The position numbers were made by a program, and so were the translations under genes. Below, one piece after another: positions 1 to 62,738 of a stretch of 64,000 bases of DNA; position 1 is the stretch's first letter; each line of letters begins with the position of its first letter. This DNA comes from a virus, in IMG/VR virus record IMGVR_UViG_3300009370_001603, positions 1 through 64,000 of that record; one strand, 5' to 3'. The notes beneath the pieces were generated by a model. The model searched no databases, had not been told where the DNA came from, and saw only the letters and a program-made list of their open reading frames with translations.

Positions 1-150
1 ATGGATGGCAATTATATTAATATGAATATGATAGGCTCCCACGCCCAACTGGACGAATTAAGAACGAGAGATGAGTTTAGGTCGTCACCAGAGGGCGATG
101 TGATCGAGGGGTCAGAACTCCCATTCGAGGTAGATGAAGATGAAATTTGA
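1..150 (+). CDS. Small acidic protein or C-terminal end of a longer gene (window edge)
   Basis: The frame is open from the first base to a TGA at 148-150 and gives 49 codons beginning with ATG. It is rich in Asp and Glu toward the end (motif FEVDEDEI). Because the window starts exactly here, it may be the tail of a longer gene. It overlaps the start of the GMP reductase gene by 17 bases, an overlap style common in this genome. No family is recognised. Confidence 0.45.
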   Translation: MDGNYINMNMIGSHAQLDELRTRDEFRSSPEGDVIEGSELPFEVDEDEI

Positions 151-1264
151 AGACGGGATTAAATTAGACTTTGATGATGTCTTAATTAAACCTAAAAGGT
201 CAACATTGGCTACTAGGTCTGGTGTTTGTATTGAAAAGGCTTATAGATATCTCCATTCTGATATACGAGAATTGGCAGTTCCCATAATAGCGGCGAACAT
301 GGACACAACGGGAACCTTTGCCATGTCAGAGGCTCTTGCTGGATTTGAAGGTGGGATCGGTATGCAGACCGCCCTGCATAAACACTACAGCCTTGCCGAA
401 CTGACTAAATATTATAAAGCTGACTGGCGTTTAAATACTTGGTTTACAATAGGCATCAAGGAGGATGATGTTCGCAGGCTGCGTCACATACAGAAGGAAA
501 CACGGTTCTATGATAATGGAATATCCTTGAGGTGTGAGATTGGTATAGAGAAAATCTGTATTGATGTGGCCAATGGATACCAAAAGGTTTTTGTTGACCA
601 CGTTAAAAGAATCAGAGACGAGTTTCCTTACGCTGTTATTATGGCTGGCAATGTTTGCACCCCAGAGATGGTAAGTGAATTACTCATCAGCGGCGGCGCA
701 GATATCGTAAAGATAGGAATTGGGCCGGGAAGCGTGTGTGCCACCAGAAGAATAACGGGTTGCGGATACCCACAGTTGTCAGCTATTATAGAGTGTGCTG
801 ACGCTGCCCACGGAATAGGTGGCCACATTTGTGCTGACGGTGGCTGCAAGCACGCGGGAGATGTTGTAAAAGCTTTTGCTGCTGGAGCAGACTTTGTAAT
901 GCTCGGAGGCATGTTGGCTGGCACGGATGAGTGCGAAGGTGAGTGGGAATACGAGACCTTGGGGGAACGCCATAAAGATGGATATGGATACTATGATGGA
1001 TATCATCATAAGAAAAAAGTAAAAAAATCGCTAAAGTTCTATGGGATGTCCAGTGAGGCGGCCATGAATAAACATAGCGGAGGAATGAAGTCATACAAAG
1101 CCTCAGAAGGTATAGTTAAAAGCGTCCCCTATAAAGGGCCTGCTAAAAACGTAATACAGGAAGTTGCCGGTGGCATTAGAAGTGCCTGTGCCTATGTAGG
1201 GGCGCCAACACTAAAAGATCTTCCCAAATGCTCAACGTTTATTCGGGTAAATAGAACACATTAA
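134..1264 (+). CDS. guaC: GMP reductase
   Basis: This is an IMPDH/GMP-reductase family TIM barrel that should convert GMP to IMP with NADPH and release ammonia. The catalytic loop GPGSVCATR places the active cysteine at about residue 202. The following GYPQLSAIIECADAAHG and DFVMLGGMLAG segments are those of GMP reductase rather than IMP dehydrogenase, and there is no CBS insert. The C-terminal YKGP and FIRV motifs also fit. At 376 residues it is slightly longer than the roughly 347 of the E. coli enzyme; the extra length includes a Tyr/Gly/Lys-rich loop around residues 280-300. The start could be 134 or the ATG at 140. It sits at the head of a primase, dNMP kinase and nuclease run, which suggests purine-pool remodelling during infection. 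Confidence 0.92.
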   Translation: MKMKFEDGIKLDFDDVLIKPKRSTLATRSGVCIEKAYRYLHSDIRELAVPIIAANMDTTGTFAMSEALAGFEGGIGMQTALHKHYSLAELTKYYKADWRLNTWFTIGIKEDDVRRLRHIQKETRFYDNGISLRCEIGIEKICIDVANGYQKVFVDHVKRIRDEFPYAVIMAGNVCTPEMVSELLISGGADIVKIGIGPGSVCATRRITGCGYPQLSAIIECADAAHGIGGHICADGGCKHAGDVVKAFAAGADFVMLGGMLAGTDECEGEWEYETLGERHKDGYGYYDGYHHKKKVKKSLKFYGMSSEAAMNKHSGGMKSYKASEGIVKSVPYKGPAKNVIQEVAGGIRSACAYVGAPTLKDLPKCSTFIRVNRTH

Positions 1265-4215: not shown

Positions 4216-4242
4216 TAATATAACGGAGACTAAATTGAAATC

Positions 4243-6491: not shown

Positions 6492-6755
6492 ATGAAGTAT
6501 CCACAATTAATTTATCACGGTCTGCTATGCTCTTGCTTGATTATCTCTCTGTATTTTAATTTTAGCCTGAACAAGGAAATAGACCATTTAAGGCTCGGAG
6601 TCTATTCGGCAAACTCAATATCAGTAGAGGCCCAAATGAAGGTTGAAACAGCATTGCAAATGCTATCAACTGATGGGGCAAGAGAGGTCGAGAGGATTGC
6701 CGAAGAAGTATATAAGAACATGAAAGAAAAAGAACTTGAGGGAGAAGAGAGTTAA
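6492..6755 (+). CDS. Membrane-anchored helical protein
   Basis: An 87-residue protein with one N-terminal hydrophobic segment (about residues 5-25) followed by a charged, mostly helical domain rich in Glu and Lys (REVERIAEEVYKNMKEKELEGEE). It may be a signal-anchored periplasmic coiled coil. The stop overlaps the next start (TTAATGG at 6752-6758), so it is translationally coupled to the second DUF1501 gene. No family is recognised. Confidence 0.55.
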   Translation: MKYPQLIYHGLLCSCLIISLYFNFSLNKEIDHLRLGVYSANSISVEAQMKVETALQMLSTDGAREVERIAEEVYKNMKEKELEGEES

Positions 6756-11460: not shown

Positions 11461-11476
11461 TAGTATTGAGACTAAA

Positions 11477-13042
11477 ATGATCGACAGGAATGACAAAAAA
11501 TCTTGGGACTTGTACAAGGAAGGTCTCACAAAGGGTGTATTTCAACTTGAGAGCAACCTTGGCAGAGCGTGGTCGAAAAGGCTGGCTCCAGAAAACCTAG
11601 AGGAACTCGCCGCACTCATTGCTTTGATTCGCCCCGGATGCCTTAAGGCTATTATTGATGGCAAGTCAATGACCCAAAGATTTGTGGACAGAAAACACAA
11701 AAAAGAAGAAGTCTCCTATCTACATGAATCCCTAGAAGATATCTTGAGTCCTACCTATGGCGTACTTGTTTACCAAGAGCAGGCCATGCGTATCGCCGTT
11801 AAGTTGGCCGGATTTAATGAGCAAGAAGCCGACAACCTTAGAAAAGCTATTGGTAAAAAGAAGGCCGGTTTGATGGCAAAAATTCGGGAGGAGTTTGTTC
11901 TAGGATGTCGAGAAGAAGGCATTGTAGACGAGGATACAGCTAAAGAAATCTTTGGTTGGATTGAAAAATCGTCTCGCTATTCCTTCAATAAATCTCACGC
12001 TGTAGCCTATGCGTTAGACTCTTATTGGTCGGCTTACTATAAAGCAAACCACACAAAAGAGTTCTTCCTGTCCTATCTATTCCATGCAAATGAAAAGCAA
12101 GACCCTCACCAAGAAATCTACGAGCTGGTGAATGAAGCCAAACTCTTCGATATTGAAGTGAAGGTTCCGAAACTATCGAGTTTTTCTAAAAAGTTCTCTG
12201 TTCGAGACGACGGCGTTTACTTCGGCATAAAGGATGTTAAATCTCTCACGGGTGTTACCGGCGACAAAGTAATAACCGCAATCGCTGAAACAAAAGAGGA
12301 ATCTGAAAAACCTCCAGAAAATTTCAGCTGGATGGACATCCTGATAAAGCTGTCCCCCAAGATTAACTCGACGGCTTTCAAGGCCCTTGCCGCCATTGGG
12401 TTCTTCTCCACCAAGTCCACCGGAGTCACCAGAAATCAAGCGCTTTATGAGTATTTGATTTTTAGAGAGCTGACAAAGGTTGAATTGGCTTGGGTGCAAA
12501 ACAATTATCGAAATAAAAAGTGGGAGAAACTAGAAGACTGCTTCTCTGACTTAGCCCCAACTAAAAAGCTAGGCGGTGGAACCAGCAATGTCAATAGGAT
12601 GCAAATAATAAACAATGAAATTGAAATGCTTAAGTATCCCCCGTATGATCTAAATGATGACCCAGCTTGGATTATTGAGCAAGAGACTAAAATGCTCGGT
12701 TGCCCAATTTCCCTGTCAAGAATTGATGCTGTAGACACCTCCATAGCAAATACAACATGTAAGGATGTCATGAATGGCAAGAGGGGAAACGATATTTGCA
12801 TTGTGGCAAATGTTCAGCGGGTCGCAAACCATAAAATAAACAAGAAAAACAGCAAACAAAAGGGAAGAGTAATGTCATTTTTGACAATAGAAGATGCGAC
12901 CTGCTCACTAGATAGCGTGGTCGTATTTCCGGACACAAGAGATAAATATCAATTTATTTTGTATGAGGGTAACAACCTAATGCTGTGCGGAGACGTGGAA
13001 AAAGACAGCTCATTCATTGTTAATAAAATTCACGAAATTTAG
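11477..13042 (+). CDS. dnaE: DNA polymerase III alpha subunit, C-terminal piece (fingers to OB fold)
   Basis: A 521-residue protein that continues DnaE directly after the point where the first piece ends. Its start MIDRNDKKSW leads into LTKGVFQLES, the conserved fingers entry. Further motifs are YGVLVYQEQAMRIA, ADNLRKAIGKKK and SRYSFNKSHAVAYA, then a helix-hairpin-helix-like region and a C-terminal OB-fold-like part (RVMSFLTIEDATCSLDSVVVFP). I chose ATG 11477; an earlier in-frame ATG at 11423 lies inside the exonuclease gene and adds residues without homology. The two pieces must associate without covalent linkage to make a working polymerase. The C-terminal tau-binding domain of cellular DnaE is not obvious. 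Confidence 0.88.
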   Translation: MIDRNDKKSWDLYKEGLTKGVFQLESNLGRAWSKRLAPENLEELAALIALIRPGCLKAIIDGKSMTQRFVDRKHKKEEVSYLHESLEDILSPTYGVLVYQEQAMRIAVKLAGFNEQEADNLRKAIGKKKAGLMAKIREEFVLGCREEGIVDEDTAKEIFGWIEKSSRYSFNKSHAVAYALDSYWSAYYKANHTKEFFLSYLFHANEKQDPHQEIYELVNEAKLFDIEVKVPKLSSFSKKFSVRDDGVYFGIKDVKSLTGVTGDKVITAIAETKEESEKPPENFSWMDILIKLSPKINSTAFKALAAIGFFSTKSTGVTRNQALYEYLIFRELTKVELAWVQNNYRNKKWEKLEDCFSDLAPTKKLGGGTSNVNRMQIINNEIEMLKYPPYDLNDDPAWIIEQETKMLGCPISLSRIDAVDTSIANTTCKDVMNGKRGNDICIVANVQRVANHKINKKNSKQKGRVMSFLTIEDATCSLDSVVVFPDTRDKYQFILYEGNNLMLCGDVEKDSSFIVNKIHEI

Positions 13043-33968: not shown

Positions 33969-34664
33969 TTATGATACTAAAGATGGTATCTCTTCGATTA
34001 AATCTAACTTCTCTTCCACCCTATCTATATTGGTTCCATAAATAGGACCAACAATTACTCGGCTTGTTTCTTTGAACCTTTTAATTCCCGACCCAAAACA
34101 AATGACACCTATCACCTTGCCCTTATAGATAATAGGCCCCCCAGAATCCCCCTGAATAGCCCAAGAAAAAACAATGTGTCCGCCTGAGCCTAAGTTTTTC
34201 CCCCCGTACTTTGCTATCCAGTGGCGAAAATCTTCTGCCCCATATCCACACATTTCGACCGTAGCTCCAATTGGAACATCGTCTACGCTTATCTTCATGG
34301 GTTCTATGGAGTCTGGTATTAAGGCGCGTATGATTCCATAATCTTCAAAGGGATCAATAGATCCAGACTTCAAAACAACTCGACCTTGATCCACAGATTC
34401 TCCAGTGTTAAATATGACTGTGAACTCCGTTGCCATCTCCTTAATACAATGTGATGCTGTAAGAATCCAGCCCACATAATAACCCTCAACCCTGCTATCC
34501 TTCACACGCTTAATAACGGTTCCACTTCCACTGAATCCATCGCCCGCAATCTTAACTATACTTGAATGATAATCTGCTTCTTCTGATGCTGGCCAATCTT
34601 GGGCGACCATAGCCTGAACTGAAAAAAAACAGAAAACAACTGACAAAAACATTTTCTTAAACAT
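33969..34664 (-). CDS. Secreted trypsin-like serine protease
   Basis: A 231-residue chymotrypsin-fold protease with signal peptide (MFKKMFLSVVFCFFSVQAMVAQ). The triad is complete: H72 in TASHC, D108 in FEDYGII, S174 in QGDSGGP. The start at 34664 is chosen because AAGGGG lies 7 bases upstream and the -10 element at 34708-34713 would fall inside a longer frame. Exported proteases of this type are unusual in phage genomes. Possible roles are host envelope or surface-protein cleavage, virion maturation or lysis; none is shown. It lies last on the minus strand, apart from the membrane gene by 100 bases. Confidence 0.85.
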   Translation of the reverse strand: MFKKMFLSVVFCFFSVQAMVAQDWPASEEADYHSSIVKIAGDGFSGSGTVIKRVKDSRVEGYYVGWILTASHCIKEMATEFTVIFNTGESVDQGRVVLKSGSIDPFEDYGIIRALIPDSIEPMKISVDDVPIGATVEMCGYGAEDFRHWIAKYGGKNLGSGGHIVFSWAIQGDSGGPIIYKGKVIGVICFGSGIKRFKETSRVIVGPIYGTNIDRVEEKLDLIEEIPSLVS

Positions 34665-34707
34665 AGTGTAACCCCTTACTGCAATCAATCTATATATTAC
34701 TAGCAAG

Positions 34708-48114: not shown

Positions 48115-49956
48115 TTATCTGTCCAGTTCATACGTAAATGATACATTAAAACTATAGGTTCCGGCCTTTGGGTTCCAGCTTTCTGACGGGGGAGAAATGA
48201 AACACTTTCTAATTCCGGGTTCCTGTTGGGGGCTTACTTCTTTTAGTAATTTTGCCAACTGGGTGGCTGTAGGCTCTACAACGCTAGGTTTTTTAAGCAT
48301 GATTGGATCTCTACCCGACCCATATGGGATTTTAGTATAGTCCATAACTAAATTTATTGAAACATCCCTTTTATGCTCAGTTCTACCTCCAATGTACTGT
48401 AATACCGGCCCTGTTTTTCTTCCCAGTACGGGAATGACAGCAAACACGTCTCCGGGATAAGTATCGTTTACTTGAATACTTTCCGTTATAGCCCCTGATA
48501 TTATATTAGTCGGCCTATTATCAAACGCCAAGCTATAAGTCAGGTTACCGGTAAATTTATTTGCCCCTATACTCACGCTGGCAGGCTGTGAATTAAGGCC
48601 AACGGCAACCATGTTGTTCGCACGCTTATAAACATGGCTACCAACGCCAAAGAATCCAGAATTTGTTATTTCATTATATTTACTTAGTGCATTATCATAA
48701 GCGTTAACTCCAGACTGAAGGGGATTAATAATTGAGCTGCCGTCCAATCCTCCATGAAAAGTACCGCTTGGGCTAAACGTTGAAAGACCTTTTATGGTGC
48801 CGTCTACCGACACCTGTACAAAAGGACTGTTGTTTGATGAGCTAACCTTTAAATTGAAATTCTCGTAGGCAACACCGCTGGATAGAAACCAGTTCTCAGT
48901 AACAGAAAATGTTCCAGCGGATTCGCTTACGTTTTCCGTTCTTACTAGGTTAAATCCACCATATTTATCGACGAGATTTAGAGTTCCGCTACCGATTTTT
49001 CCAAATACATTTGGGTATCCTTTTGCGCCATCGCTAAAGAGTCGATTGGTTACGAACTTCTTCGCAGACTCCCAAGCCGGAATTTTTGTCGGCGCTGTCC
49101 CCTCGGGATCTTTATGCATGTAATGCGTCTTACCGGCGGCATTAATAGTGTGAGATATCCTGTAACCTCTGGGGGCGACAGTGCCATCCCCCAAATTTAC
49201 CTCTGCTGACGATCCTCCGTCGTCCACTTGGACGGCCCAGCTTTCAGAAAAACTTTTAATAAAGGCGCCACTTAGTGCGACAACTAGGTCTTCATTAGAA
49301 ACTAGTTGAACTTCTCTGGGGTGTTTCCTATCCGAATCCCCGCTACCAATCGGAATCAATGTTCCATCTAAGTCTGGTCTAATTCCGGCAGCCTCTTGGT
49401 GTAGCAGAACATCCGCTTCCAGATTAATAGTAAAATCAGATTTATTTGTATAAGTACCCTCACTGAAGTTAATGCTAACCACCCTTGGGTAGCATATAAC
49501 TGCGGGTATGTCTTCTCTAACGTCCGTAATTTCAAGTCTTTGACCGTCTTGTGCGAACAAGGCCTTCAACGATCTCTGTTTAGATAGAATGGCTGAAGCT
49601 AGGTTCTCTTGAGGAACCTGCTGTCTAGGGGGTTTATTTATGCCGGTGTGAGACCTGTTGCTATCAAACGCTCCATAGGGGCCGATATGTGCTGGCACGG
49701 GGCTAGTTCCAGCCCAAAACGGATAAGGGCCATCTTTAACAGAAGTCCTTCCCGCCTGCCCGTCTGCAACGTGGTCAAGCGCATACGGAGATCCCTCATC
49801 CGGTAATAATGTACCAGTTAAAGTTATTGTATAAGTGACACCAAACGCTTCCCCAGCTCCATTTTTTAGTATATTTGTATTAATACTAACTAGCGGAGTT
49901 GGACGTATAGTACACTCTTGAGATGAGTCATTCTGATATCTGATTCTGATAGGCAT
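48115..49956 (-). CDS. Tail or baseplate protein
   Basis: A 613-residue protein whose N terminus (MPIRIRYQNDSSQE...VTYTITLTGTLLPDEG) and later segment (PAVICYPRVVSINFSEGTYTNKSDFTINLEADVLLH, about residues 150-185) follow a beta-rich pattern seen in phage tail proteins. SLKALFAQDGQRLEI near 129 belongs to the same pattern. The start overlaps the stop of the giant protein gene as TAATG, so the two are coupled. Function as a tail-tube-end or baseplate component is inferred from context. Confidence 0.55.
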   Translation of the reverse strand: MPIRIRYQNDSSQECTIRPTPLVSINTNILKNGAGEAFGVTYTITLTGTLLPDEGSPYALDHVADGQAGRTSVKDGPYPFWAGTSPVPAHIGPYGAFDSNRSHTGINKPPRQQVPQENLASAILSKQRSLKALFAQDGQRLEITDVREDIPAVICYPRVVSINFSEGTYTNKSDFTINLEADVLLHQEAAGIRPDLDGTLIPIGSGDSDRKHPREVQLVSNEDLVVALSGAFIKSFSESWAVQVDDGGSSAEVNLGDGTVAPRGYRISHTINAAGKTHYMHKDPEGTAPTKIPAWESAKKFVTNRLFSDGAKGYPNVFGKIGSGTLNLVDKYGGFNLVRTENVSESAGTFSVTENWFLSSGVAYENFNLKVSSSNNSPFVQVSVDGTIKGLSTFSPSGTFHGGLDGSSIINPLQSGVNAYDNALSKYNEITNSGFFGVGSHVYKRANNMVAVGLNSQPASVSIGANKFTGNLTYSLAFDNRPTNIISGAITESIQVNDTYPGDVFAVIPVLGRKTGPVLQYIGGRTEHKRDVSINLVMDYTKIPYGSGRDPIMLKKPSVVEPTATQLAKLLKEVSPQQEPGIRKCFISPPSESWNPKAGTYSFNVSFTYELDR

Positions 49957-52900
49957 TATTTACCCCTAAGTCTTAAATTTAGGTTGTCCGTAGTTTGGGT
50001 ACTAGTAACATTTAGGTTCAACGATTGATTGGAAGAACCGCTAGCTACAGTCACAATTAGCGGCAAGCCGCTGTCAGAAACGACGCCACTAGCCCCAAAA
50101 GTCCTTAAGTTCATACTATTATACACATATGCGGACGGAGCACCCGATAACATTAGGCTCATATGTCCGCTCACATCCACTGGTTTTCCGGATGTAATGA
50201 GGTTTAATGAGCCGTTTGCAGACTCACCACCAACGAAGTCCCCTATAACACACTCAACGAATGGTCTATGGGTCACAAAACCCTTTATTGATGGATCGAA
50301 ACCAGACGCTTCAATATACAAATCTCCGTAGGCGTTGGAGAATACGATTCCAGATGTCTCATGTGTTATTGGATCTCCGGTCTCATTTTGGTACACGCGA
50401 TCTAGTAACATATTTTGGCCGTCGTCTGTTTTAGCTCCAAATATCTTTACATCGATCCAGCTTCCAGAATTAGGTATGGATGGGATCTGCCCCCTCAGCA
50501 TGGCGTCATAAGTAAAGGCGGCCCCAGCGTCCGTCACGCCACTCGAATGGTGGTTTCCGCTCGTGGCATGATCATGGAATGGAGAGCCAACGGCTAGGGT
50601 GTAATCACTGTCTCCTCTTTCTGACCTGAATATAGAAACAGACCTACCAAAACTATCATTCTCGCATCCGCTAGAAGTTAAATTGTCTCCAATGTAAATA
50701 CTGCCCGATCTGGCGTGATACCCGTGGGAGAAGAGTTTTTCTGCATAAACCCATTCTTTTGTCCTTGCTTGCCAGTCTGTAATACTATGTCTGTAATTAA
50801 ACACCGCCCCATGATTAAGAACCATAGTTCCGCTGTCTGTATCAAAGTAGTCAACCCTAATCCCAGAACTGCCTAAATCATAGAATTTGTGTGATGGTAT
50901 GTCGAACTCAGCCCCGAAACTCTTTCTTTGGAACGCTGTGTTTAAATCATTTGTTACCACCGCGCCGCTATAAATATGCTCATGAAGCGTCTCGTAATCG
51001 TGATGTGGGGCACCGATTGCAATCATATCTGCGTCAATTGCTACAGAGTATCCAAACTTATCAGTTCTACCACCATTATTAAGAGCAAAATCATTGTTTA
51101 AGTGATGATCGCCTTTAATCGTTTGTAGGGTAGAAATAGTAGCACCATCAAGCCCGATGTTAATACTACTCGGTTTAATTTTTTGTCTGAATTCCCAAGG
51201 TAGTCTTTCGTTAACAACATTCTTTCCACTGCCAGTTTTCTCAAAGTAGAACGCAGCTCCAGCTCCACCGTTTTGACTAACCACGACCCCAGACCTGAAT
51301 GGGTCATTTTCTATTTCGTGCCACTGAACTATGCCGCTAATTCCGCTTGCAACATTTTCCGTAACGAGACCATTGAAGGGTGTGCCAACAATAAGTTTGT
51401 TATTTGTTAGGTCAACCGAGAAGCCAAATAGGTCTCCGGGACATCCCGAGTTATAAGAATCAAAGTCTAAGAAGTCTCTACCTTCTGCTACTTTCATTAA
51501 GTCATTAACGCCGCCTTCTGAACCCGCATCAACTAGGAAATCTTTCTCTACACCATCCACAACGTAGTTTGTGGGAAGTTGATTCAGGAAGTCACCACTA
51601 AATCTGGGATACCCACCATAGTCGGGATAGACGCTGCCTCCAAAATATTTAATTTCGATGTCTATTTGCTTAGGGGTTGATGGGTCTGCCGGTCTGCCCA
51701 CGTCGTTCGCTGGATGATAAGTATCTTCATTGTCTACAAATTCATCTACGGTTCCGTCACCATTCGCGCCATAGAGTGGGAATAAAGTATTGGCTACGCC
51801 CTTCGCGGCATAATACTTAGGGGCGCTGCCTCTCTCTGGTGCGCGTAGTTTTTGGGTAAACTGGAATACCTTATCGCTAGTCGTCACGTCGAAACCGCGA
51901 CCACCAAATTCCTTTCTCTCGTGTGGGCTTACGGGGTACAGGCTTCTGATAAAGAATTGATTTTCACCAACAGAATCATTTCTATAGTGCTTGCATTGCC
52001 CTTGAATCATAGTGGAGTCTGTAAGTACTACAATTTTGGATCTTTCAAAACCATTCGCGCCATTTGTGAAATGCTCATATTCTTCTGCCGCAACAATTGG
52101 GCCATCTTCGATTTCTTCATCGCCGCGTGGAGCACAGCACGTCTCATCCTTGGGCGGTGGGCACGGGGGATTAGCTGGATTACAATACTCTTCACTTCGA
52201 TGCATGATCGGCCTAAAGACTCCCGGTATCACGCCTTCTTCAGCGGGAATGGTCTCACACTCTTCTCTGCAATCCCAGCCAATTATCCTTTTCCCTTCTT
52301 TTGGTTTGTTTAGAATTTCTTCCTCAAGCGGAAGTGGACATCCCGATATAGACAATATTCTGGCGGTTTGAGGATAACCATTTGCTGGGTCGTGGCCCTT
52401 GCCACCGGCCTCATCGCACTGTTCTACCCAAATTTGCTCTTTATATATATCCGTATCAAATATGATTCTTAATTTACCAGTCTGGTCTGCTTTCACATCT
52501 ACGTAAGACTGTTGTACATTGCCAACCGTGGTTGCCCCCAAACGACAATTTCCACATTCTTCGTTTGGATCACAAGTGCCACAATCGTGGAAATCCTCAT
52601 TATACCAGCAACCATTTCTAAGGTTTCGCTGGGGCGCAACGTTTTCGTCGGTCATTTCAATGATACCATGACAGTCGCAGGGAGGCTGCGGGAAGGTACC
52701 ATCCCATGCGCACGGGGCGTTCGCCTCAAAGACATTCTCAGCGACACCAAACGTCCCATATATTTCATTCTTGGTCTCAGACACCCAATTCACAAATACC
52801 CTATAGCCGGAGCCGGGATTAACAGGGAATTGACCGCTAGCCTTACAGTCTAGATACCAGAGATTTTCTTTGTTGACTTCTGGACATATATCATATACCC

Positions 52901-55900
52901 CTTGCCACTGGCTGTGTAATTCGGGTGTATCATACCAAATTAAATTTTTGTAATCTCCGCCGCCAGAAATCGGAATAAAATCAAACAAATCACCCTCGTC
53001 CCAGCCACAATCTTCTCCATTGAAAATATCTTTTTCATCGCACTCGTGGTCAGGGCTGTGTCTCAGTGATACCTTTTGGACAGATGTTCTCTCTTGAGAG
53101 TTATAGTTTTTATCCCACGCATAACCATGTAAACAGCCTGCAAAAACATCGGAATCAAGTTCTAGTTTTTGCAATATTGTATCAGTGTCCTCCGGGGCGT
53201 ATGGGCAACAATCTTGCCTATTGCCCTCATCCACTATCTTGTTGGTTTGAACAAAATAATCGCCCTTGCACGGTCTGAGCCAAGGCCTACTCTTTAGCCC
53301 AAGTTTCTCAAGTAGAACTGAAACATTTTCCGCTAGGCCCTGCCTGTTCTCTCTGTGCCATCCAGCATAAGTGATGAATAGCTTCTTGTTTCCATTCTTC
53401 AACCAATTTTTTAACACGGAAATGTCATCGTCTGTTGGCATTCCATCCGGATTAGCAATCCAAACAGTGTCAACAGCCTCAGTGCCATCAATATCAACTC
53501 CGGGTCCGTACACTTCATTCTCGGTAACATTAATACCAAAGGCGGTTAGCTTTTCTTTTATAACTGAAAATTCATAAGCATCTTTAAAGGAGGTTCTCTT
53601 TGTCCACCCACCAAGCTGCACTAAGCGACCGGCTTCCTCACAGCTTTTCCTTACTGTATTTACATAAAATACTATGTTTTGATCGGAATTGCCCCCTATA
53701 TCGTCACCACCAAGAGAGTCGGTAAAGCTACGCTCATTTTCTCCATTAACAGAGGCTAAAATAAACACCCTATTATTCCCGTCTACAGTTTCCCCCTCGT
53801 CATTCTTGTATAGGTATGGTTCTTCAACCATTAATGTAGACTTTTTATCGAGCAATACTCTTTTATCTACAACCGTGACTTTTTCTTTCACGTCTCCTAT
53901 TCCCTGTAGAATTGCATCTCTGCCATTCTTGGGGTCTGGATTTATAAAGCCACCCTTGTTATCGGATAATCTCCAATATTCTATATTCTCACCTATAGAC
54001 TGCCCCGTGAAGTCTCCGGAAACAGAGAAGGCCAAGGTGTCTAATTGATGGGTTGCAAATTTGCATTCCTTATAAAATTGAGGGATGGTAAAGAATTCCC
54101 AAATTGGATCGCATACCGTCTCACAAATAGTTTCCTCTGGGCGAAACCAATGTTGGTCCGGTGTCCACTCTGCCGCCGTCAGGATTGGAACAACATCTTC
54201 CCACGGCCTATTAATCAAGGGTTTTGGTGATGAGGGATAGTTTCTACATGGCGATCCTATAGGCCCACTCTTATCTGAATTCGTGAAGTGGAATGGCCAG
54301 TTCATCTTATACTTATGGGGCATCCCATTATCTTTTGCGCACGTTACATTCCATTGCGCCCTAAGATCTCCAAGATGCTTGATCGGAAGGTTACAAACGG
54401 TCTGATTGTCCTCGTCACATGGTGAAGACACAAACAAATCTTCAAGACCTAAATCAGACACGTCGTATACGATCTTTCCAACGCCCTTGGCAAACATGTT
54501 GGGAGCAGCATGTTTTGATTCATAGGTATCAGTGTAAGCATTTTCTGGAACAAATGACTTGGTAACATTCCATCTATTCCCAAATACATCAGTTTCACTA
54601 ATACATTCCGGAAGAGACTCATATTCAGTGTCGGCAGCCTCAATTTTCATTCGAGAGCCGAGTCTTTTCAGGATCTTATTAACTATATCGTTGGATTCCC
54701 TGTAGAGACCATCTTCCTCATAAAGCGGATCATTACCAACCAAAACCAAGGTTCTGTCGCCTAGGGCTAACCAGTTTTTAATGTTATCAATAATTTCATC
54801 GCTGGCAGCATCTAGTTCTGGTGTAATTATAAATGCAAGCCCAGCGTTTCGTGGTATTTCTATGGTAGAAAATGGCAATCTTGTAAATGGTATATTGTCG
54901 GGCTGGAAGTAATTACCCATGCGATCATAGAAACCAGCTTCACGAAGCTCATGATGAACTGATCTGTCAAGATTTCCAAACCTCGTGAATTCTACGGCTC
55001 CGCTATGGGAAACGTACTGTTTAGCTTCAAACATTCTCACGGCACCGGCGTTTGTATACGAAGCAAATGTAGCCTCTTTGGCGCCCCTGTTGTACCACAC
55101 ATTGCTATCCTCAAACATCGTGGTGGAATCTGTGGGCGCTCCAAACGCAACGGTTATTCCGTCATCATCTACGGAGGTGCTATATCCCAGCCTAGAGCTT
55201 CCTAAGAACTCACCTTGAATAAATTGCCAAGTTCCAGTGGTTGTAATATCGCCATACTTGTAGTTAAATATGGGCTTATATAGTTCAATGGGAAGTCCGT
55301 GACCGTTTGTTCCCTTACCAATACCATCCCAGAAATTTTTATCTGTCCTTAGCCAAAGCTTATTAGTCTGAGAAAGCTCATGATAAGTTTGTTTCTTGGC
55401 ATAATCAGCCCCATGTTCTAGAACTAAGGCATCATATCTAGCCAAGGGAATCTCAAGGTTCCTATAAACAAGCCAGTCCCGAATCTTATTATACATTCTT
55501 TGGTTTTCTGCGTCTTGTCGCTCGAAAATTTCGCAAGGAACATACGTCCACGGAGAACCTACCGAAATAACATCCGAATTTTTACTGATTGCAACAGAGT
55601 GGCCAAACCTGTCGTTGTATTGCTTGCCAAAACCCAAGAAGTCATCTGGAGCATCCTGTTCATTCTCTTCATTAACCTGTCTTTCGCTATATGGTATAAT
55701 TTCTTGCACACAGTTAAATGTGCCGCTCTCTTTTTCAAATACAAAAACCCTACCACCAGAAGAGGGGGGAATTTGGAATTCCGCAGCATTGGACTTTGCC
55801 CACTTTTGACCAACGCCACTCGTGATGAAGCTAAGGATTGGATATGGCGTATTTTCAATGTTGTTATCTATCAGATAGCCAGAGTTCAACGTGTTGTTAA

Positions 55901-58900
55901 TCAGAGACGCTGTGGTTAGCTCCATTTTCTCAGACGCACCAAGTTCTATTCTGGTATGGCCAGACATGGGAACGGGAATCTCTGGATTGACTACTCCGCT
56001 CGCATGACTGTACTCTTTATAGAAATCAACAAAATCGTCCACAACATCTTCATCGCCTAACTGGAAGGCTTTACCAAAGAGTGTACTGTGGCTATTCTCT
56101 TTAAATATACCTACAATTGGCGGTATTCCACTGTGAGGCTCAAAGGCTGTCCAGTCAGTTTTCGGAGGGAACATCTCTCTGAATGCGCCAATAATACCAC
56201 TAAGCATAGAGTTATAGGTATTCCTAGCTCCAAAATTATCTACAAGCTTTTGGTCATCCATTCTTGGGATATAGGTATGTGAGAAGAAATCTTTAAACTC
56301 GTCTGGATGTTTTTTCTTGTCCTTATCGTGATCTGTAAGTTGAAGTATGAGACATTTTACGTTTAAGTTTGGCTGAAATTCATTTGCAGTTTGGGCATTC
56401 CACGGGGCTGAGAAATATTTGTACAGGTGCTCCCATTTCTTACCAACATTTTTTATATATTTTATATTGTCAACATTGTAGGTAAACTTGTCAACAAAGA
56501 CCACCATGCACATTGGGATGCCGGAGGTAGTAATATCTGGGAATCGTCTAGACCAACCGGCGAAAGGTGCTCCAGCAACAATGGTCTCCCTGTCTCCGCT
56601 CTTGGCGATGTCTACCGAGCTTCCAAGCAATCTACCCTCTTGACCTATATTCCATTTTCGTCCAGATATGGTGAATTGATCAAATGTTATTAAGTTTTCA
56701 ACAACTTTGTCTACATAATCTCGCCTAAATCCAGACGGGAGCATTAGCTTATCTTCCATCGTCCAGATAGACTTTTCACCAGCAACATCTTGCCCTCTTC
56801 GATACAAGAACAGCGATCCGGCATCTGGTATGGCATGGCCAGAAGCATCTGGGATTTCTATCTTGGGTGAACCAACAACCATCAGATCGCTGGTAACAGC
56901 AACGGCCTCCCCGTAATTATCAGTTGGGTTTCGTCCGGATATGGGTGTGATGGAAAGATTACCACTTAGATATGGATAGTCGCCAATTAATTTAACACCA
57001 GAGTATACAATGTCAGAATCACAATCTCCATCGCCTTGATCCCCGCCCCTCCAGTTCGGGCCACATATTCCGTATTCCCACTCTTCAAAGTCTCTAGGCA
57101 CTTGAATGGAGTCTGTAGACCCAGTAGTTATTTTAAGGGTAGAGTAATAAGGGGCGTTTGGAATCAAACCAGTATATTTTCTGAAGCCGTAATAGTTCCC
57201 GCTATAGCCAGTCTCTCCGGCAAAGTTTATAGCTCCGGAGTTTGTGTATGTATTGACAGCTCTGAATATACCTCCGTCATTACACGTTTCTGGTCTCCAT
57301 ATTGTTTCGTCGGTCACGAGGGGTGGATCAATGGCTTTTCTTGGACTATCACTATCACATGCTCCATAGCCAATTAAATCAACACCCCTGATTTCGTTTG
57401 AAACCGGTATGGCCGCAATTGAGTTATCTCTTAGTTGGATGCCGGTACCATAATTTTGGTTATACCATCTTAGGTATGTGGAACCTACCCCTCCATAGTT
57501 TGGAACATATAGGTTCATTCCAAGTTGTGAGGCTCCGCCGTCCGACGCTTCGCTTCCGGAGGAGGAATTTGCTTGACTAGTTACTTCGTCGTCTCCGTAT
57601 ACCGTGAGCTTTAGGGTTCCGGAGGTAACAAACTGGTTATTAACTACAACCAGAGGCATTTCAACTTCTGGGGATCTATCTATTAGTTCGGCACCACCCA
57701 ATATATAGACTGGTATCGTGCCCGAATGAGGATGAGGATCACCCGCTAGATTATTCTCTATACGAAGCTGCATCTGCTGGAAAAAGCCCGTGCTATTGCC
57801 AGATGGGGCGTAGGTATACAGAGGTAATTCGCCGCCACTAGGTGTAATTACTAATCCGTCATTAGCAATAGACAGGGGCATCTGCAACGTAGAGATGCCT
57901 TTACCTTTCGTTACCAGATTAAATGTGCCAGAAGCCCCGCTAACAACATTACAACAACCAGCGGTGTGTAGTGGGAATTCCGGGTCAGACGCGATAGCTA
58001 CAGCTACGGTACGTAGTGGTAAAGCCCCATCTTGTCTAAGGGAGCCGCTAACATTCAGCTCAAAACCAGATTCAGGCAATAAGACTGGGCCAAATGTGTT
58101 AAGATTAAGTATGCCACTATCTTTTGGAGCCACCGAAAGCGTATGTAAATCAAGGCTTCCCTTCAAGACATCTGTGCAACCACTAGCATATAGGTTAAAT
58201 ATGCCTGAGTCGGGCGTACACTTCACAAAGGCTTCATCCATTCTGACATGAGCGCTATGAATATCAATATTAGAGTCGAATGCTCCGCCAGACGGATAGA
58301 CCAAATCATATTGCAAGAACATGTCGTCAACATCTTGCGAATAATATTTTTCGGTAAACTCAGTCAGTCTTGGTTCTGCCGGGAATAATGCCCACTGTTC
58401 TGAATCATCAATAAGATTTTGATAATCAAACTTACTATCCAGCCTTACCATATAACTAGAAGGTTGAATGTAATGAATGGACCTGTTAATTAAGCCCCAG
58501 TTGCTTTCATTAGGAGTCCAATAAGGTTCTTTTTTCTTCGTATATAAGCTTACGACTAACCTTGGGCCTTTATAGTGATCTTGGTAAGCGTGTTTATGTT
58601 CATTGCAAAGATGGAAGGTGGTCGGTTTGCACTCTGGCCATTGAATGTCATTATCGGCTCTGTGTTCAAGGACAGTTTCGACAACCAAGGCCTTGTCTTT
58701 AAAGTTGTACCCAATAGGCAGACTCTTAGTTATTCTCTTAGCTACAGAGTGGAAGTTGTCCGACGTGTCGCTTAGGTGGAACCGCAAGAAGTCATTTTCG
58801 ATTTGGGTGTGATAGGAAACGCCGCTACTAATCGTCGAGGGCCAAGAGTTCAACGATAGAGAGCTTTGATTCTCATATGGAATGCCGCTATGTTTCAGGT

Positions 58901-61900
58901 GGAAACTAATTAAATCTTTTCCAGCCCTTTTTGTCCAATGGCTAAAGGCAGAGCTAAATGCATGAGTCTTGAAGTCACCTAACGCCCAGTCTGCTTGAGT
59001 ATCTTCGTTTACGTAGTCCCAGAGCTTGTACGTATCGTTACTGCTAGGCTCTCCCGGCTCAAAGAACTTAACCCTATGATTTTCCAAGAACTTCTGAGCT
59101 GTGACCTGTTTGTATGTCGCGTCAGCATTGGTTTCTACAATGTTGGTTCCTGAGCCATATACGCCACTATTCCAAGTAGAGATTCCAAATTCGGTCAGTA
59201 GCATATTCATTCCAACGCCAGAACCGTCAGAGTGACCAACGATTAAATTTGCACTATTAGTATGCTTTGTAAACTTACTAGAAGATGCTCTAAGTGTAGT
59301 CCAAACGCCGGAGTGGAATTCATTATCAGTATATAGTTTTAGCTTCTCGCTCTCATGATCATTATATGTGAGTATAACAGACAGTGGGTATTGATATCCG
59401 CTATACTTTACAGTGTCTTGAACAGAGACCAATGTTCCGTCTGTGGCTTTAGCGTAACCGCATAAGTAGCCGTCTTTATAACCAAGGGCGAAATCCATGT
59501 CTGATGGCGTAGTCCATTTAGAGAAAAGTACGCCAGAGCTAAATAAATCATAAGTTGTTCCCGACACATCTATATCTGGTGTGAATCTCGTGAAGATAGA
59601 GAATCCTCCAGAGGCGTCAATATTACCAAAATTAACGTTCTGATTATGGCCAGATATTCTTACAACGTTATCAAGAGCATCGGCAATCATACCATATAAT
59701 TCATGGTCTTCAAAATTGTGTGCCGGGGAGGTGGAAGACAATGCCGTCCAGTCTGTTGTTTTGTAGCTACTGGTGTGATTAGGTGCTTTTGTACTAAATA
59801 TATTCTGAGTCTTAAATCTCCACCCGACATTCTTGTAAATCTCAGGCGTGGAATTAAATAGTCCACTTACTCCACCAAAGCCTGCTCCCAGCGATCTAGA
59901 TTGAACATATTTTCCATCCATGTAGTCAAAGTTATAGAAACCGGACAGAAGGGGGAATTCAAGTAAAGGATTATAAAATCCAAAGCCAAACGCATCAGTA
60001 TCGTATGGACCCTGAACGGTCCCCTCTAACCCCCTCCACCTTCTAGAGTAATTAGATTTAATGCTAGAGGGGGTGCTATAGGCATGTGGAATATTAGTTA
60101 TAGTTGAAAGCGGGCCATATCCAGAACCGGCATTTATTATGCTGTCATTACCCTGCTTTGTGGACGGGAAGATTTTACCTTCAGATCTTCCGTCTTGTAT
60201 TTTATCAAAACACTCTCCACCCTGAATCTCAAGTTGTAGCGCGGCCTGTGGGGCATATCTAACCAGTAGATGGGCGCTGGCAATAGCGGCTCCGCTGGGG
60301 AGTGGGTATATGTCTAAATACAAATGTTCAAGCATAGAGCTGACATTGTAATTTCTGGAAAGCCCGATCTCTACATCATCTTTGTATACCTTTAGTGGTA
60401 CTTCATAGTCAGCAAAATCTGTTGTATTAACTATTGGATATCTTGTCAGGGAATAATGGTCTCCCCCTAAGTTGCCGCTTGTCTCTAAATATTTTTCCCT
60501 CTCAGATATACTTCTGGTAGATAACGCTAAATCGTCATCGTTGTCATAGTATCCAGATATAACAGGGTGAGTGCCCTCGCTGGTTATGATCTCCCCATTA
60601 ATCTGGACTGATGACGGGTTCTGTAAAAATCCGCTTGGAGCTTTTGTGATATTGAGGAGTTTGTCGTCGCTCCACCCAACAATGTCTAGCACATAGTCTC
60701 GGGAATCTGCTGCCTTCTTTGCCTTTACCTTTAGTGTAATAGACTCTATGGCCAAGAAGTTATTATCAAATCCAGCTTCAACTTTTCTTTCTGTTTGAAA
60801 TGCTCCGCTCGGGTGGAACCAAATTGGGCAAGTGTTTTGATCAAACTCGCACCCAAATGCTCCCCGCCTGATCTCATTAACAGGCCCGTGGCCATAGCCA
60901 AACTTTACAATCATCTTGCCAGAATCAAAATGAGGCCCAGTACTGTGCAGCTCGGCATAATCTAAGGTAGAATCAGTCTGCAATGCCTTGACAATCTGTT
61001 CAGAACCACATGTGTCCAAGTTATTACCAAGAATGCTAGAACTACCATCGTACATTGGCTTGTTCTTATGCTGCCACACACTACTTACTGCTGGGAAAAT
61101 TCCACTATTACTTGCGTCAGCTAAGGCAAAGAACGACGGTAAGATTTTCTTTTCCAGTCTTCTCCCGTTTCGCGGAGTGTCTAGAAAGAGATTAAAATAG
61201 TCCTCTCGTCTTGGTCCAGTGTATGAACTCAGCCAGTCCCCACCGCTGTTACAAATTTCTATAGCAGAGATTCTTATGCTTTTAGTTGGATTAATTAAAG
61301 ACTGGCCTTGCGTTGATAGCGGAGCACCGTCCAATGCTAGGTAATCATCATCATCCGCAACGGTCGTGTGCATTACATAGTCTTCTTCAAACCCTTCGTC
61401 AAATCCGGGGTCAAACGCATCGTCTCTCGGTGTAACCTTTACCTCGAAAGAGAGTTGATAACCAGTGATTTGATGTGTGTGCGGTTGGTCACGACGCTCC
61501 CAGTCATACTGGTCTGCAAACTTATTTGTAATTGGTTTTAAAGAATATGTAGCATAGTTAACAAGAGTTTTATCGTTACTATAGTCTACATCGCCAAGAA
61601 TGTTTATATCTTCATACTGAACCATCGCGTTCCCGGATGGGTCGGAAAAGGTAACGTTCTTAATCGTATAAAGCGGGGCTATTTTGGATTCATAGTTAGC
61701 CATCGGGGCAGATGCTCTAATCCGCAGTCTTGTCTGATCCGGCCTAATGTGGAAATCAGTTAACTCACTCTTGTACTGGAAATTGCCCTCAGTATGGTAG
61801 CCACTGGGGTGAATAAAAGAATTGGCGTCGTCGGCCAAAAGGACGCTTTGGCTAAAGGGGGTGTGATAATCCCCGGTAAAAACACCCTCATCTATAAATG

Positions 61901-62738
61901 TATAAAGATTTTGTTTTTCATTGGACGGACCAACGAACTGTTGCATCCCGGAATCAAGATCTAGATCTCCGCTAGGATAAAGCTTTTCTACGCATTTATA
62001 ATCACCAAAGCTCCCGGCGAACTTGTCGAGATACGTTGGCATCAACGAGGAGGAAGTTTCAGCCTTCTGTTTGATGCTATAACTAGCGGTCATAACGCCG
62101 CTTGCGATCTCCCCGATAGCTGTGAGACCCGCGAGCATCCCGACTCTTCCGGATATCTTACCGTTAATCCCTGCTATACCATCTAATTCGGACTTTACCC
62201 CACGCGCCACTATCATGATGGGGTTAGACTGTGTTGTGTATTTTAGAGTTGCTATACAGGTATACCCAACCAATGAGTCGCAAATGTTTATTGGCGAAGG
62301 GTCGTTTACATCTTGATCTAATGAGTATTCTATGTCAAGAATATTTACCTTAACACCATTGGATAGGGTCTTCAATCCAATATATTCGTATACAATGTAC
62401 TCGTAGGCCCCACTATCATTTGTTAGTACAACGGTGTCGCCAATTAATGGGGGTGCCGCTTCAAATGTTTCGGACAGAATTACATAAATTCTATATATTG
62501 GCCCCTTTGAGTCAACTTCAAGGTTGGAACCGGGAGGGGGTGTTACGCGATAGCGGAACTCTTTGTCAACTACGCTTTTTGGAGAAGATAGCTTTCCATA
62601 GCCATAGGATCTAGAAGTTCTTAGGTTAGATGTGCCACTCATCTTAGCTTTAAAAACGCCACCTTGCGCGTCCACATTCTTAGCCGTGGCGTCTTTTACG
62701 CATAAGCACTCTAAGTTCTTGACATTTATATGCGACAT
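49956..62738 (-). CDS. Giant multidomain adhesin-like tail protein (4260 residues)
   Basis: A 12.8-kb gene for a beta-rich surface protein without signal peptide. About residues 1030-1185 form a LamG/concanavalin-like lectin domain (GGFSIFTRF near 1042). About 1500-1715 and again 4170-4260 contain repeats with alternating Leu and Thr/Ser (GSLDLHTLS, GILNLNTFG, GTFNLVTKG). Seven FG-GAP-like motifs occur near 1945, 2045, 2385, 2525, 3780, 3905 and 4045 (for example FGYSVAIDADMIAIGAPH). Between the fourth and fifth is an insert of about 1200 residues with two GATase-like segments near 2620-2690 and 3085-3155 and a Cys-rich stretch near 3380-3530. A receptor-binding or tail-tip role fits. AGGAA is a modest ribosome site before the ATG. 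Confidence 0.75.
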   Translation of the reverse strand: MSHINVKNLECLCVKDATAKNVDAQGGVFKAKMSGTSNLRTSRSYGYGKLSSPKSVVDKEFRYRVTPPPGSNLEVDSKGPIYRIYVILSETFEAAPPLIGDTVVLTNDSGAYEYIVYEYIGLKTLSNGVKVNILDIEYSLDQDVNDPSPINICDSLVGYTCIATLKYTTQSNPIMIVARGVKSELDGIAGINGKISGRVGMLAGLTAIGEIASGVMTASYSIKQKAETSSSLMPTYLDKFAGSFGDYKCVEKLYPSGDLDLDSGMQQFVGPSNEKQNLYTFIDEGVFTGDYHTPFSQSVLLADDANSFIHPSGYHTEGNFQYKSELTDFHIRPDQTRLRIRASAPMANYESKIAPLYTIKNVTFSDPSGNAMVQYEDINILGDVDYSNDKTLVNYATYSLKPITNKFADQYDWERRDQPHTHQITGYQLSFEVKVTPRDDAFDPGFDEGFEEDYVMHTTVADDDDYLALDGAPLSTQGQSLINPTKSIRISAIEICNSGGDWLSSYTGPRREDYFNLFLDTPRNGRRLEKKILPSFFALADASNSGIFPAVSSVWQHKNKPMYDGSSSILGNNLDTCGSEQIVKALQTDSTLDYAELHSTGPHFDSGKMIVKFGYGHGPVNEIRRGAFGCEFDQNTCPIWFHPSGAFQTERKVEAGFDNNFLAIESITLKVKAKKAADSRDYVLDIVGWSDDKLLNITKAPSGFLQNPSSVQINGEIITSEGTHPVISGYYDNDDDLALSTRSISEREKYLETSGNLGGDHYSLTRYPIVNTTDFADYEVPLKVYKDDVEIGLSRNYNVSSMLEHLYLDIYPLPSGAAIASAHLLVRYAPQAALQLEIQGGECFDKIQDGRSEGKIFPSTKQGNDSIINAGSGYGPLSTITNIPHAYSTPSSIKSNYSRRWRGLEGTVQGPYDTDAFGFGFYNPLLEFPLLSGFYNFDYMDGKYVQSRSLGAGFGGVSGLFNSTPEIYKNVGWRFKTQNIFSTKAPNHTSSYKTTDWTALSSTSPAHNFEDHELYGMIADALDNVVRISGHNQNVNFGNIDASGGFSIFTRFTPDIDVSGTTYDLFSSGVLFSKWTTPSDMDFALGYKDGYLCGYAKATDGTLVSVQDTVKYSGYQYPLSVILTYNDHESEKLKLYTDNEFHSGVWTTLRASSSKFTKHTNSANLIVGHSDGSGVGMNMLLTEFGISTWNSGVYGSGTNIVETNADATYKQVTAQKFLENHRVKFFEPGEPSSNDTYKLWDYVNEDTQADWALGDFKTHAFSSAFSHWTKRAGKDLISFHLKHSGIPYENQSSLSLNSWPSTISSGVSYHTQIENDFLRFHLSDTSDNFHSVAKRITKSLPIGYNFKDKALVVETVLEHRADNDIQWPECKPTTFHLCNEHKHAYQDHYKGPRLVVSLYTKKKEPYWTPNESNWGLINRSIHYIQPSSYMVRLDSKFDYQNLIDDSEQWALFPAEPRLTEFTEKYYSQDVDDMFLQYDLVYPSGGAFDSNIDIHSAHVRMDEAFVKCTPDSGIFNLYASGCTDVLKGSLDLHTLSVAPKDSGILNLNTFGPVLLPESGFELNVSGSLRQDGALPLRTVAVAIASDPEFPLHTAGCCNVVSGASGTFNLVTKGKGISTLQMPLSIANDGLVITPSGGELPLYTYAPSGNSTGFFQQMQLRIENNLAGDPHPHSGTIPVYILGGAELIDRSPEVEMPLVVVNNQFVTSGTLKLTVYGDDEVTSQANSSSGSEASDGGASQLGMNLYVPNYGGVGSTYLRWYNQNYGTGIQLRDNSIAAIPVSNEIRGVDLIGYGACDSDSPRKAIDPPLVTDETIWRPETCNDGGIFRAVNTYTNSGAINFAGETGYSGNYYGFRKYTGLIPNAPYYSTLKITTGSTDSIQVPRDFEEWEYGICGPNWRGGDQGDGDCDSDIVYSGVKLIGDYPYLSGNLSITPISGRNPTDNYGEAVAVTSDLMVVGSPKIEIPDASGHAIPDAGSLFLYRRGQDVAGEKSIWTMEDKLMLPSGFRRDYVDKVVENLITFDQFTISGRKWNIGQEGRLLGSSVDIAKSGDRETIVAGAPFAGWSRRFPDITTSGIPMCMVVFVDKFTYNVDNIKYIKNVGKKWEHLYKYFSAPWNAQTANEFQPNLNVKCLILQLTDHDKDKKKHPDEFKDFFSHTYIPRMDDQKLVDNFGARNTYNSMLSGIIGAFREMFPPKTDWTAFEPHSGIPPIVGIFKENSHSTLFGKAFQLGDEDVVDDFVDFYKEYSHASGVVNPEIPVPMSGHTRIELGASEKMELTTASLINNTLNSGYLIDNNIENTPYPILSFITSGVGQKWAKSNAAEFQIPPSSGGRVFVFEKESGTFNCVQEIIPYSERQVNEENEQDAPDDFLGFGKQYNDRFGHSVAISKNSDVISVGSPWTYVPCEIFERQDAENQRMYNKIRDWLVYRNLEIPLARYDALVLEHGADYAKKQTYHELSQTNKLWLRTDKNFWDGIGKGTNGHGLPIELYKPIFNYKYGDITTTGTWQFIQGEFLGSSRLGYSTSVDDDGITVAFGAPTDSTTMFEDSNVWYNRGAKEATFASYTNAGAVRMFEAKQYVSHSGAVEFTRFGNLDRSVHHELREAGFYDRMGNYFQPDNIPFTRLPFSTIEIPRNAGLAFIITPELDAASDEIIDNIKNWLALGDRTLVLVGNDPLYEEDGLYRESNDIVNKILKRLGSRMKIEAADTEYESLPECISETDVFGNRWNVTKSFVPENAYTDTYESKHAAPNMFAKGVGKIVYDVSDLGLEDLFVSSPCDEDNQTVCNLPIKHLGDLRAQWNVTCAKDNGMPHKYKMNWPFHFTNSDKSGPIGSPCRNYPSSPKPLINRPWEDVVPILTAAEWTPDQHWFRPEETICETVCDPIWEFFTIPQFYKECKFATHQLDTLAFSVSGDFTGQSIGENIEYWRLSDNKGGFINPDPKNGRDAILQGIGDVKEKVTVVDKRVLLDKKSTLMVEEPYLYKNDEGETVDGNNRVFILASVNGENERSFTDSLGGDDIGGNSDQNIVFYVNTVRKSCEEAGRLVQLGGWTKRTSFKDAYEFSVIKEKLTAFGINVTENEVYGPGVDIDGTEAVDTVWIANPDGMPTDDDISVLKNWLKNGNKKLFITYAGWHRENRQGLAENVSVLLEKLGLKSRPWLRPCKGDYFVQTNKIVDEGNRQDCCPYAPEDTDTILQKLELDSDVFAGCLHGYAWDKNYNSQERTSVQKVSLRHSPDHECDEKDIFNGEDCGWDEGDLFDFIPISGGGDYKNLIWYDTPELHSQWQGVYDICPEVNKENLWYLDCKASGQFPVNPGSGYRVFVNWVSETKNEIYGTFGVAENVFEANAPCAWDGTFPQPPCDCHGIIEMTDENVAPQRNLRNGCWYNEDFHDCGTCDPNEECGNCRLGATTVGNVQQSYVDVKADQTGKLRIIFDTDIYKEQIWVEQCDEAGGKGHDPANGYPQTARILSISGCPLPLEEEILNKPKEGKRIIGWDCREECETIPAEEGVIPGVFRPIMHRSEEYCNPANPPCPPPKDETCCAPRGDEEIEDGPIVAAEEYEHFTNGANGFERSKIVVLTDSTMIQGQCKHYRNDSVGENQFFIRSLYPVSPHERKEFGGRGFDVTTSDKVFQFTQKLRAPERGSAPKYYAAKGVANTLFPLYGANGDGTVDEFVDNEDTYHPANDVGRPADPSTPKQIDIEIKYFGGSVYPDYGGYPRFSGDFLNQLPTNYVVDGVEKDFLVDAGSEGGVNDLMKVAEGRDFLDFDSYNSGCPGDLFGFSVDLTNNKLIVGTPFNGLVTENVASGISGIVQWHEIENDPFRSGVVVSQNGGAGAAFYFEKTGSGKNVVNERLPWEFRQKIKPSSINIGLDGATISTLQTIKGDHHLNNDFALNNGGRTDKFGYSVAIDADMIAIGAPHHDYETLHEHIYSGAVVTNDLNTAFQRKSFGAEFDIPSHKFYDLGSSGIRVDYFDTDSGTMVLNHGAVFNYRHSITDWQARTKEWVYAEKLFSHGYHARSGSIYIGDNLTSSGCENDSFGRSVSIFRSERGDSDYTLAVGSPFHDHATSGNHHSSGVTDAGAAFTYDAMLRGQIPSIPNSGSWIDVKIFGAKTDDGQNMLLDRVYQNETGDPITHETSGIVFSNAYGDLYIEASGFDPSIKGFVTHRPFVECVIGDFVGGESANGSLNLITSGKPVDVSGHMSLMLSGAPSAYVYNSMNLRTFGASGVVSDSGLPLIVTVASGSSNQSLNLNVTSTQTTDNLNLRLRGK

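Follow-up and report, generated by a model that had tools for sequence, protein, structure and literature searches.

A probable integrin-type propeller interrupted within blade 4 by apparently nested domains in a phage tail-module protein

Animals use integrin-type propellers as adhesion platforms, and bacteria have such propellers too. The integrin alpha propeller, as in alphaM, alphaX and alphaIIb, is built from seven FG-GAP/Cage repeats forming four-strand blades in an arc, and some integrins carry an inserted domain (alphaI). Repeat proteins of Pfam family FG-GAP_2 (PF14312) share this blade family; the Pfam model covers the repeats, not the phage architecture described here. Calcium loops lie in integrin blades 5–7, and in some integrins also in blade 4 (PMC3192720). 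In the Mycoplasma genitalium adhesin P110, a seven-bladed propeller scaffold bears long connections that form a ‘crown’ binding sialyl-oligosaccharides; the inter-sheet connections reach 168 residues, and the closest fold named for it is virginiamycin B lyase (PMC6203739).

We describe a 4,260-aa phage protein that shares with the integrin alpha propeller its repeat number, its four-strand blades, its arc geometry and, with some integrins, the presence of an inserted domain. Unlike integrins, it lacks DxDxDG calcium loops, its blade 4 is interrupted after strand 3 by an insert of ∼1,000 aa that precedes strand 4, and it is the product of a tail gene; no I-domain match was seen for its insert. 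P110 may serve as a working parallel, by analogy, for a propeller with a sialic-acid-binding crown. The likeness would lie in a propeller scaffold with long glycan-binding connections, and the difference in the closest fold named for P110, which is not an FG-GAP one. Viral FG-GAP proteins are already in databases. When our model of blades 1–4 (below) was compared with BFVD viral proteins, 28 structural matches were obtained at E ≤ 0.001, among them FG-GAP proteins of giant viruses and A0A6J5S3H5, annotated ‘FG-GAP repeat [uncultured Caudovirales phage]’; the 28 are 265–1,285 aa long, versus 4,260 aa here. A search of the open-access literature found no paper on this propeller-with-nested-insert architecture.

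The window, meaning the whole 64,000-nucleotide stretch of DNA that was analysed, belongs to a virus record of 122,518 bases. The first-pass annotation had taken the protein for a phage one. Two genes on the same record bear this out, one for the terminase large subunit (phrog_2, E 4.4e-23) and one for the tape measure (phrog_4211, E 1.2e-24). Only 18 bases separate the end of the tape-measure frame from the start of the 4,260-aa gene on the same strand, and the frames downstream encode, in order, 613, 179, 1,664 and 1,532 aa. The 14 loci of relatives that we looked at all have the 613-aa and 1,664-aa genes downstream, and 11 have the tape measure upstream; the remaining three (L106, L046, L031) have <0.8 kb of upstream sequence. 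The order tape measure – 4,260-aa-type gene – 613 aa – 1,664 aa is conserved among the relatives, and such a place behind the tape-measure gene, within the tail module, is one expected of phage receptor-binding or tail-tip proteins. A PHROG search with the 4,260-aa protein gave no match, so no annotation links it to adsorption. No relative of it was found in 50,697 named phage records, and the 613-aa neighbor likewise had no match among named phage records.

A two-gene form, with a break near residue 1740, was present at seven of the 14 loci, which makes the motif-bearing half a natural unit. These loci were hand-picked to include short frames, so that 7/14 is not a frequency; judged by length, eight of 67 non-redundant frames appear to be split. 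Six loci have frames extended at the N-terminus, to 4,847–5,569 aa (L035, L031, L030 and L045, and from length only L033 and L046). The ‘LNLxTSG’-type repeats flank the propeller on both sides, with a second set at residues ∼1514–1714 (∼57590–58200, minus strand). A LamG-like domain suspected by eye at residues ∼1000–1240 was dropped when Pfam searches of 21 relatives gave nothing convincing. Elsewhere in the window, DNA polymerase III alpha is found in two frames of 542 and 539 aa (9165–13042, plus strand), corresponding to positions 246–616 and 624–1055 of phrog_405 and separated by a frame for an RNase_T exonuclease of 224 aa. The window also has two DUF1501 proteins (4243–5508 and 6755–7969, plus strand; E 3.9e-64 and 9.1e-105) and a trypsin-like protease gene (33969–34706, minus strand; E 1.4e-8).

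Table 1. Features of the 4,260-aa gene, in order along the protein with the whole gene first; positions are those of the window.
Feature	Position	Strand	Remarks
Whole gene	49956..62738	-	4,260 aa, single open frame, directly downstream of tape-measure gene
N-half	57519..62738	-	residues 1–1740; encoded by a gene of its own in some relatives
Proposed closing (Velcro) strand of blade 7	56964..57020	-	residues 1907–1925; consensus ySG.KLigd; inferred from covariation
Blade 1 (A)	56733..56963	-	FG at residue 1942; motif HMM, blades 1–4 model
Blade 2 (B), strands 1–2	56553..56648	-	FG at residue 2038; motif HMM, blades 1–4 model
Blade 2 insert	55761..56543	-	residues 2066–2326; alpha/beta in secondary-structure prediction; no Pfam family
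Blade 2 (B), strands 3–4	55689..55760	-	GGRVFVFE...FNCVQEI
Blade 3 (C)	55209..55616	-	FG at residue 2378; motif HMM, blades 1–4 model
Blade 4 (D), strands 1–3	55014..55205	-	FG at residue 2517; motif HMM and both models
Insert: GIFT-like domain 1, first half	54624..55007	-	weak DUF4350/GldG profile match
Insert: jelly roll (carbohydrate-module fold), first part	53739..54068	-	approximate limits
Insert: second GIFT-like domain	53244..53738	-	sequence-related to domain 1
Insert: jelly roll, second part	52299..53243	-	approximate limits; least conserved stretch of the C-half
Insert: GIFT-like domain 1, second half	51921..52115	-	
Blade 4 (D), strand 4, past the insert	51837..51890	-	L137 model, covariation, 64-row conservation
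Blade 5 (E)	51165..51437	-	FG at residue 3771; motif HMM, L137 model
Blade 6 (F)	50715..51065	-	FG at residue 3895; motif HMM, model of its start alone
Blade 7 (G)	50430..50660	-	FG at residue 4030; motif HMM
‘LNLxTSG’-type short repeats, C-terminal	49959..50228	-	residues ∼4171–4260

Relatives were collected from IMG/VR in four viral scans (17, 3, 44 and 77 loci, largely overlapping), giving 139 open frames, or 67 non-redundant ones after near-identical loci were collapsed. Of 68 rows, counting the window, 66 have 985–1,229 aa from the end of the first part of blade 4 to the FG of blade 5; the remaining two rows begin inside the insert. A stretch of ∼1,200 residues between motif groups of four and three had been proposed, and this matches both the window, at about 1,200, and the range across the spanning rows. 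No compact relative with a short insert was found among the 67. Four of the 68 rows (L131, L113, L109, L134) start inside the region and were left out of the identity, covariation and conservation analyses, leaving 64. A single scan of genome contigs found three relatives; two of the contigs belong to one SAR202 MAG and the third to a Verrucomicrobiales MAG, and all may be viral sequence that was binned together with a host.

The FG-GAP pattern matches the protein at seven residues (Table 1), exactly the number of FG-GAP/Cage repeats in an integrin-type propeller. Shuffling the same residues 2,000 times gave 0.0095 matches on average and never more than 1. An HMM built on 457 motif sequences of the relatives, with the window excluded, recovered the same seven sites and no eighth. 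The four-then-three arrangement first proposed is confirmed. Pfam places the protein in FG-GAP_2 (E 3.7e-17; 62.7 bits versus a cut-off of 23), and 38 of the 39 members of the blade 5–7 alignment match that family at E ≤ 0.01. The G of FG is conserved in 62–64 of 64 full-span rows in every blade, and the P of GAP in 62–64 of 64 for six blades and just 41/64 for blade 7. Metal-binding loops of DxDxDG type, suggested at first pass as a check, are absent: DxDxDGxxD occurs nowhere in the protein and in none of the 457 relatives' motifs. This points to an integrin-type fold of the FG-GAP_2 kind and not to the calcium-binding integrin family as characterized in PMC3192720. Searching solved structures by sequence with two propeller profiles gave nothing credible.

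Two stretches were modeled. The blades 1–4 model (window residues 1740–2830, 64 rows; pLDDT 80.6, pTM 0.60) had integrin alphaX as its sole Foldseek match in the PDB at E ≤ 0.001 (E 1.2e-5). With VIA-align, integrin alpha chains made up all 50 of the 50 matches listed, the best being alphaM 7usm_A (Z 15.8, rmsd 2.7, 196 residues, 21% identity; model 198..835 on chain 332..543). For the region across the insert we used L137, the most compact complete relative found, whose unbroken 1,198 aa span blade 4, the insert, blade 5 and the start of blade 6 (68 rows; pLDDT 87.1, pTM 0.54). Foldseek returned no match at E ≤ 0.001 for this blade 4–5 model, and TM-scores were low. VIA-align aligned it with integrin alphaIIb 3fcu_A (Z 11.4, rmsd 3.3, 143 residues, 20% identity; model 1..1192 on chain 226..405), a chain range that we take to be blades 4 to 6. 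Because the aligned range begins at model residue 1, it includes the ∼90 residues before the insert; moreover the propeller residues after the insert number about 120 by our own count of strands and turns, fewer than the 143 aligned, so the pre-insert side is involved unless the helical linker was aligned too. Consecutive blades thus have integrin geometry in blades 1–4 and, in the relative, in blades 4–5 with the start of 6. At pTM values of 0.54 and 0.60 relative domain placement is uncertain, and matches to solved structures are quoted from search listings.

These matches bear on the suggestion that the seven motifs are independent FG-GAP units, each in a small domain unrelated to the others, with no propeller. 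The motif alone is short and its spacings vary, as such units would allow; nonetheless two models of different stretches match integrin propellers, and we reject this explanation as hardly credible. The outcome that the first-pass annotation had named as refuting its proposal, small domains lacking a closed propeller, was thus not seen. Together with covariation (below), the two models uphold the proposal of one integrin-type propeller parted by a large insert.

The insertion site itself had to be revised. The first-pass annotation put the insert between blades 4 and 5; a large insert does part the blades, but it enters within blade 4, after strand 3 and before strand 4. The GIFT-like match starts at L137 model residue ∼92, equivalent to window residue ∼2578, straight after blade 4 strand 3 (AGAVRMFE). 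The last strand of most other blades follows the pattern W/F....K(L/I), with a looser version in blades 2 and 3. In blade 4 the strand-4 pattern (consensus ..qKi.aPERG) is found solely after the insert, at ∼3623; in L137 it reads NVYNKIVSPERG, with a predicted strand at 953–960. It is this pattern, with a separate alpha/beta domain beginning at ∼2578, that places the insert within the blade. We consider it very probable that there is one integrin-type propeller interrupted in blade 4. A second insert, of ∼260 aa, lies between strands 2 and 3 of blade 2; Pfam searches of it in 31 relatives gave two families with one weak match each.

Within the main insert, L137 model residues 92..944 have the fold of GIFT-type domains by VIA-align. 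The best match to the relative's model was IFT52 5fmr_C (Z 16.0, 201 residues, rmsd 3.2), followed by site-one protease (Z 13.7), OST subunits (11.7–12.7) and ThuA-like proteins (12.2). The phage domain is thus like GIFT / DUF4350 / GldG domains (IFT52, OST48, site-one protease) in fold, at Z 11.7–16.0, with a weak sequence profile. At E ≤ 0.1, 22 of 31 relatives contained a DUF4350 match, the best of them at E 1.8e-4; the copy in the window scored 16.4 bits, below the cut-off of 30.4. GIFT-like domain 1 gave only weak matches when solved structures were searched by sequence. Residues ∼395..821 of the model have a jelly-roll fold, matching mostly carbohydrate modules; the best was the porphyran module 8xmz_A (Z 10.2, 117 residues, rmsd 2.5), and several further carbohydrate-module families matched at Z 8.3–9.7. 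Other jelly-roll matches were C-terminal domains of Cry proteins (9.7–9.9) and Eph receptor domains (8.3–8.8). No Pfam carbohydrate-module family matched in 35 relatives. The domain between the two jelly-roll parts resembles the first GIFT half in sequence (hhalign 96.1%, E 3.5e-9). The insert therefore looks nested in the models, an IFT52/OST48-like domain around a jelly roll around a second such domain, as judged from the first and last residues of alignment ranges and from predicted strands. Unlike known GIFT domains, the phage copy is apparently split around a jelly roll that itself holds a second GIFT-like domain, all within a propeller blade. By eye, the second GIFT-like domain seems to have an ‘N..FY.NLV’-like part ahead of its core instead of behind it, as in a circular permutation.

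The fold of GIFT-like domain 1 is that of class I amidotransferase/ThuA-like proteins, which could suggest that the insert or the propeller is an enzyme cleaving or modifying glycans for passage through the host surface. The nucleophile Cys of class I amidotransferases sits at the strand-4 turn of the fold. In all 64 rows no Cys was present at or near this turn (residues 2661–2675), and no credible Pfam enzyme family was matched, making an enzyme very unlikely.

Ring closure was approached through covariation in the 64 rows (about 41 effective). A closing strand is a feature of integrin propellers, and residues 1907–1925 couple in a way that fits such a strand, with 14 couplings to blade 7 (1.3 expected), 5 to blade 1 (1.1 expected) and 0–2 to the others. 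When 1,831 windows of 19 residues were scanned, only seven, starting at 1902–1908, had 14 couplings to a blade at least 100 residues away. Strand 4 past the insert had 5 couplings to blade 4 (1.9 expected) and 3 to blade 5 (1.5 expected). Several neighboring blade pairs were below expectation (0.73 for 1–2, 0.77 for 2–3, 0.69 for 5–6) and some distant pairs were enriched (1.28 for 4–6, 1.20 for 4–7); blade 1 strand 4 couples mainly to the GIFT domain and the inserts. On these covariation data, thin and mixed as they are, closure of the seven-blade ring is likely. The ring could instead be shared by two subunits, four blades coming from one copy and three from its neighbor, with the insert acting as a subunit linker. 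Covariation is blind to within- versus between-chain contacts, and a very long linker joins the two arcs; against such a swap, blades 4 and 5 align jointly to one integrin ring in a single-chain model, and the insert is inside blade 4, with strands 1–3 and strand 4 on opposite sides of it. We regard the swap as quite unlikely and retain the single-chain ring.

Sequence variation differs among the parts. Mean pair identity over the 2,016 pairs of the 64 rows was 0.17 and 0.22 in the jelly-roll parts, 0.28 in each of GIFT-like domain 2 and the blade 2 insert, and 0.30–0.58 in the blades. The first and second halves of GIFT-like domain 1 had 0.51 and 0.45; linkers were low as well (0.20, 0.23 and 0.26). 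A fast-changing module hanging from a steady platform would suit host recognition; drift in a loose module would give an identical pattern. The propeller could also be real and the insert a structural, assembly or trigger device, for example an oligomerization domain, with no host glycan binding. Its well-conserved GIFT-like domain 1 fits this idea, as do matches of the insert to the GATase-like domains of GH42 and GH164 enzymes (Z 11.4–11.8), which serve in oligomerization. However, the inner jelly roll is the least conserved stretch and most of the fold matches listed for it are carbohydrate modules, and we find an insert that does not bind host glycans, with such a role instead, unlikely.

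We favor, at a probability of roughly 0.7, a closed integrin alpha / FG-GAP-type propeller acting as a tail-tip platform, with a nested, variable tower touching host glycans. Computation supports the motifs, four consecutive integrin-type blades, blades 4–5 in one arc across the insert, the nested folds, the gene order and the variability pattern; full ring closure, a place in the virion, glycan binding and use in host recognition are inferred. The N-half would anchor the protein at the tail end beside the tape measure, and the propeller would give the tail tip a rigid platform. The tower would hang from the hairpin that joins strands 3 and 4 of blade 4, running from GIFT-like domain through jelly roll to second GIFT-like domain, and this variable tower, perhaps with the blade 2 insert, would contact host surface glycans. 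Host range could then, we propose, be changed in the tower with the propeller unchanged. Receptor binding by the insert, taken by itself, has slightly better than even odds in our estimate.

An integrin-type propeller is apparently a fixed part of the tail module in a large phage family, accompanied by nested carbohydrate-type modules. The finding supplies a candidate function for a family of ∼4,000-residue proteins that has no PHROG and is unmatched in 50,697 named phage records, and it makes the insert the first stretch of interest for host recognition in these uncultured phages. More tentatively, and at a little under even odds, a widespread phage lineage may use a closed integrin-type propeller as the host-reading head of its tail tip, with insertions stacked within insertions (propeller, GIFT, jelly roll, second GIFT), the outermost binding part evolving fast and the outer shells fixed, all without calcium loops. 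If true, this would be an integrin-like adhesion head lacking calcium loops in a virus of bacteria.
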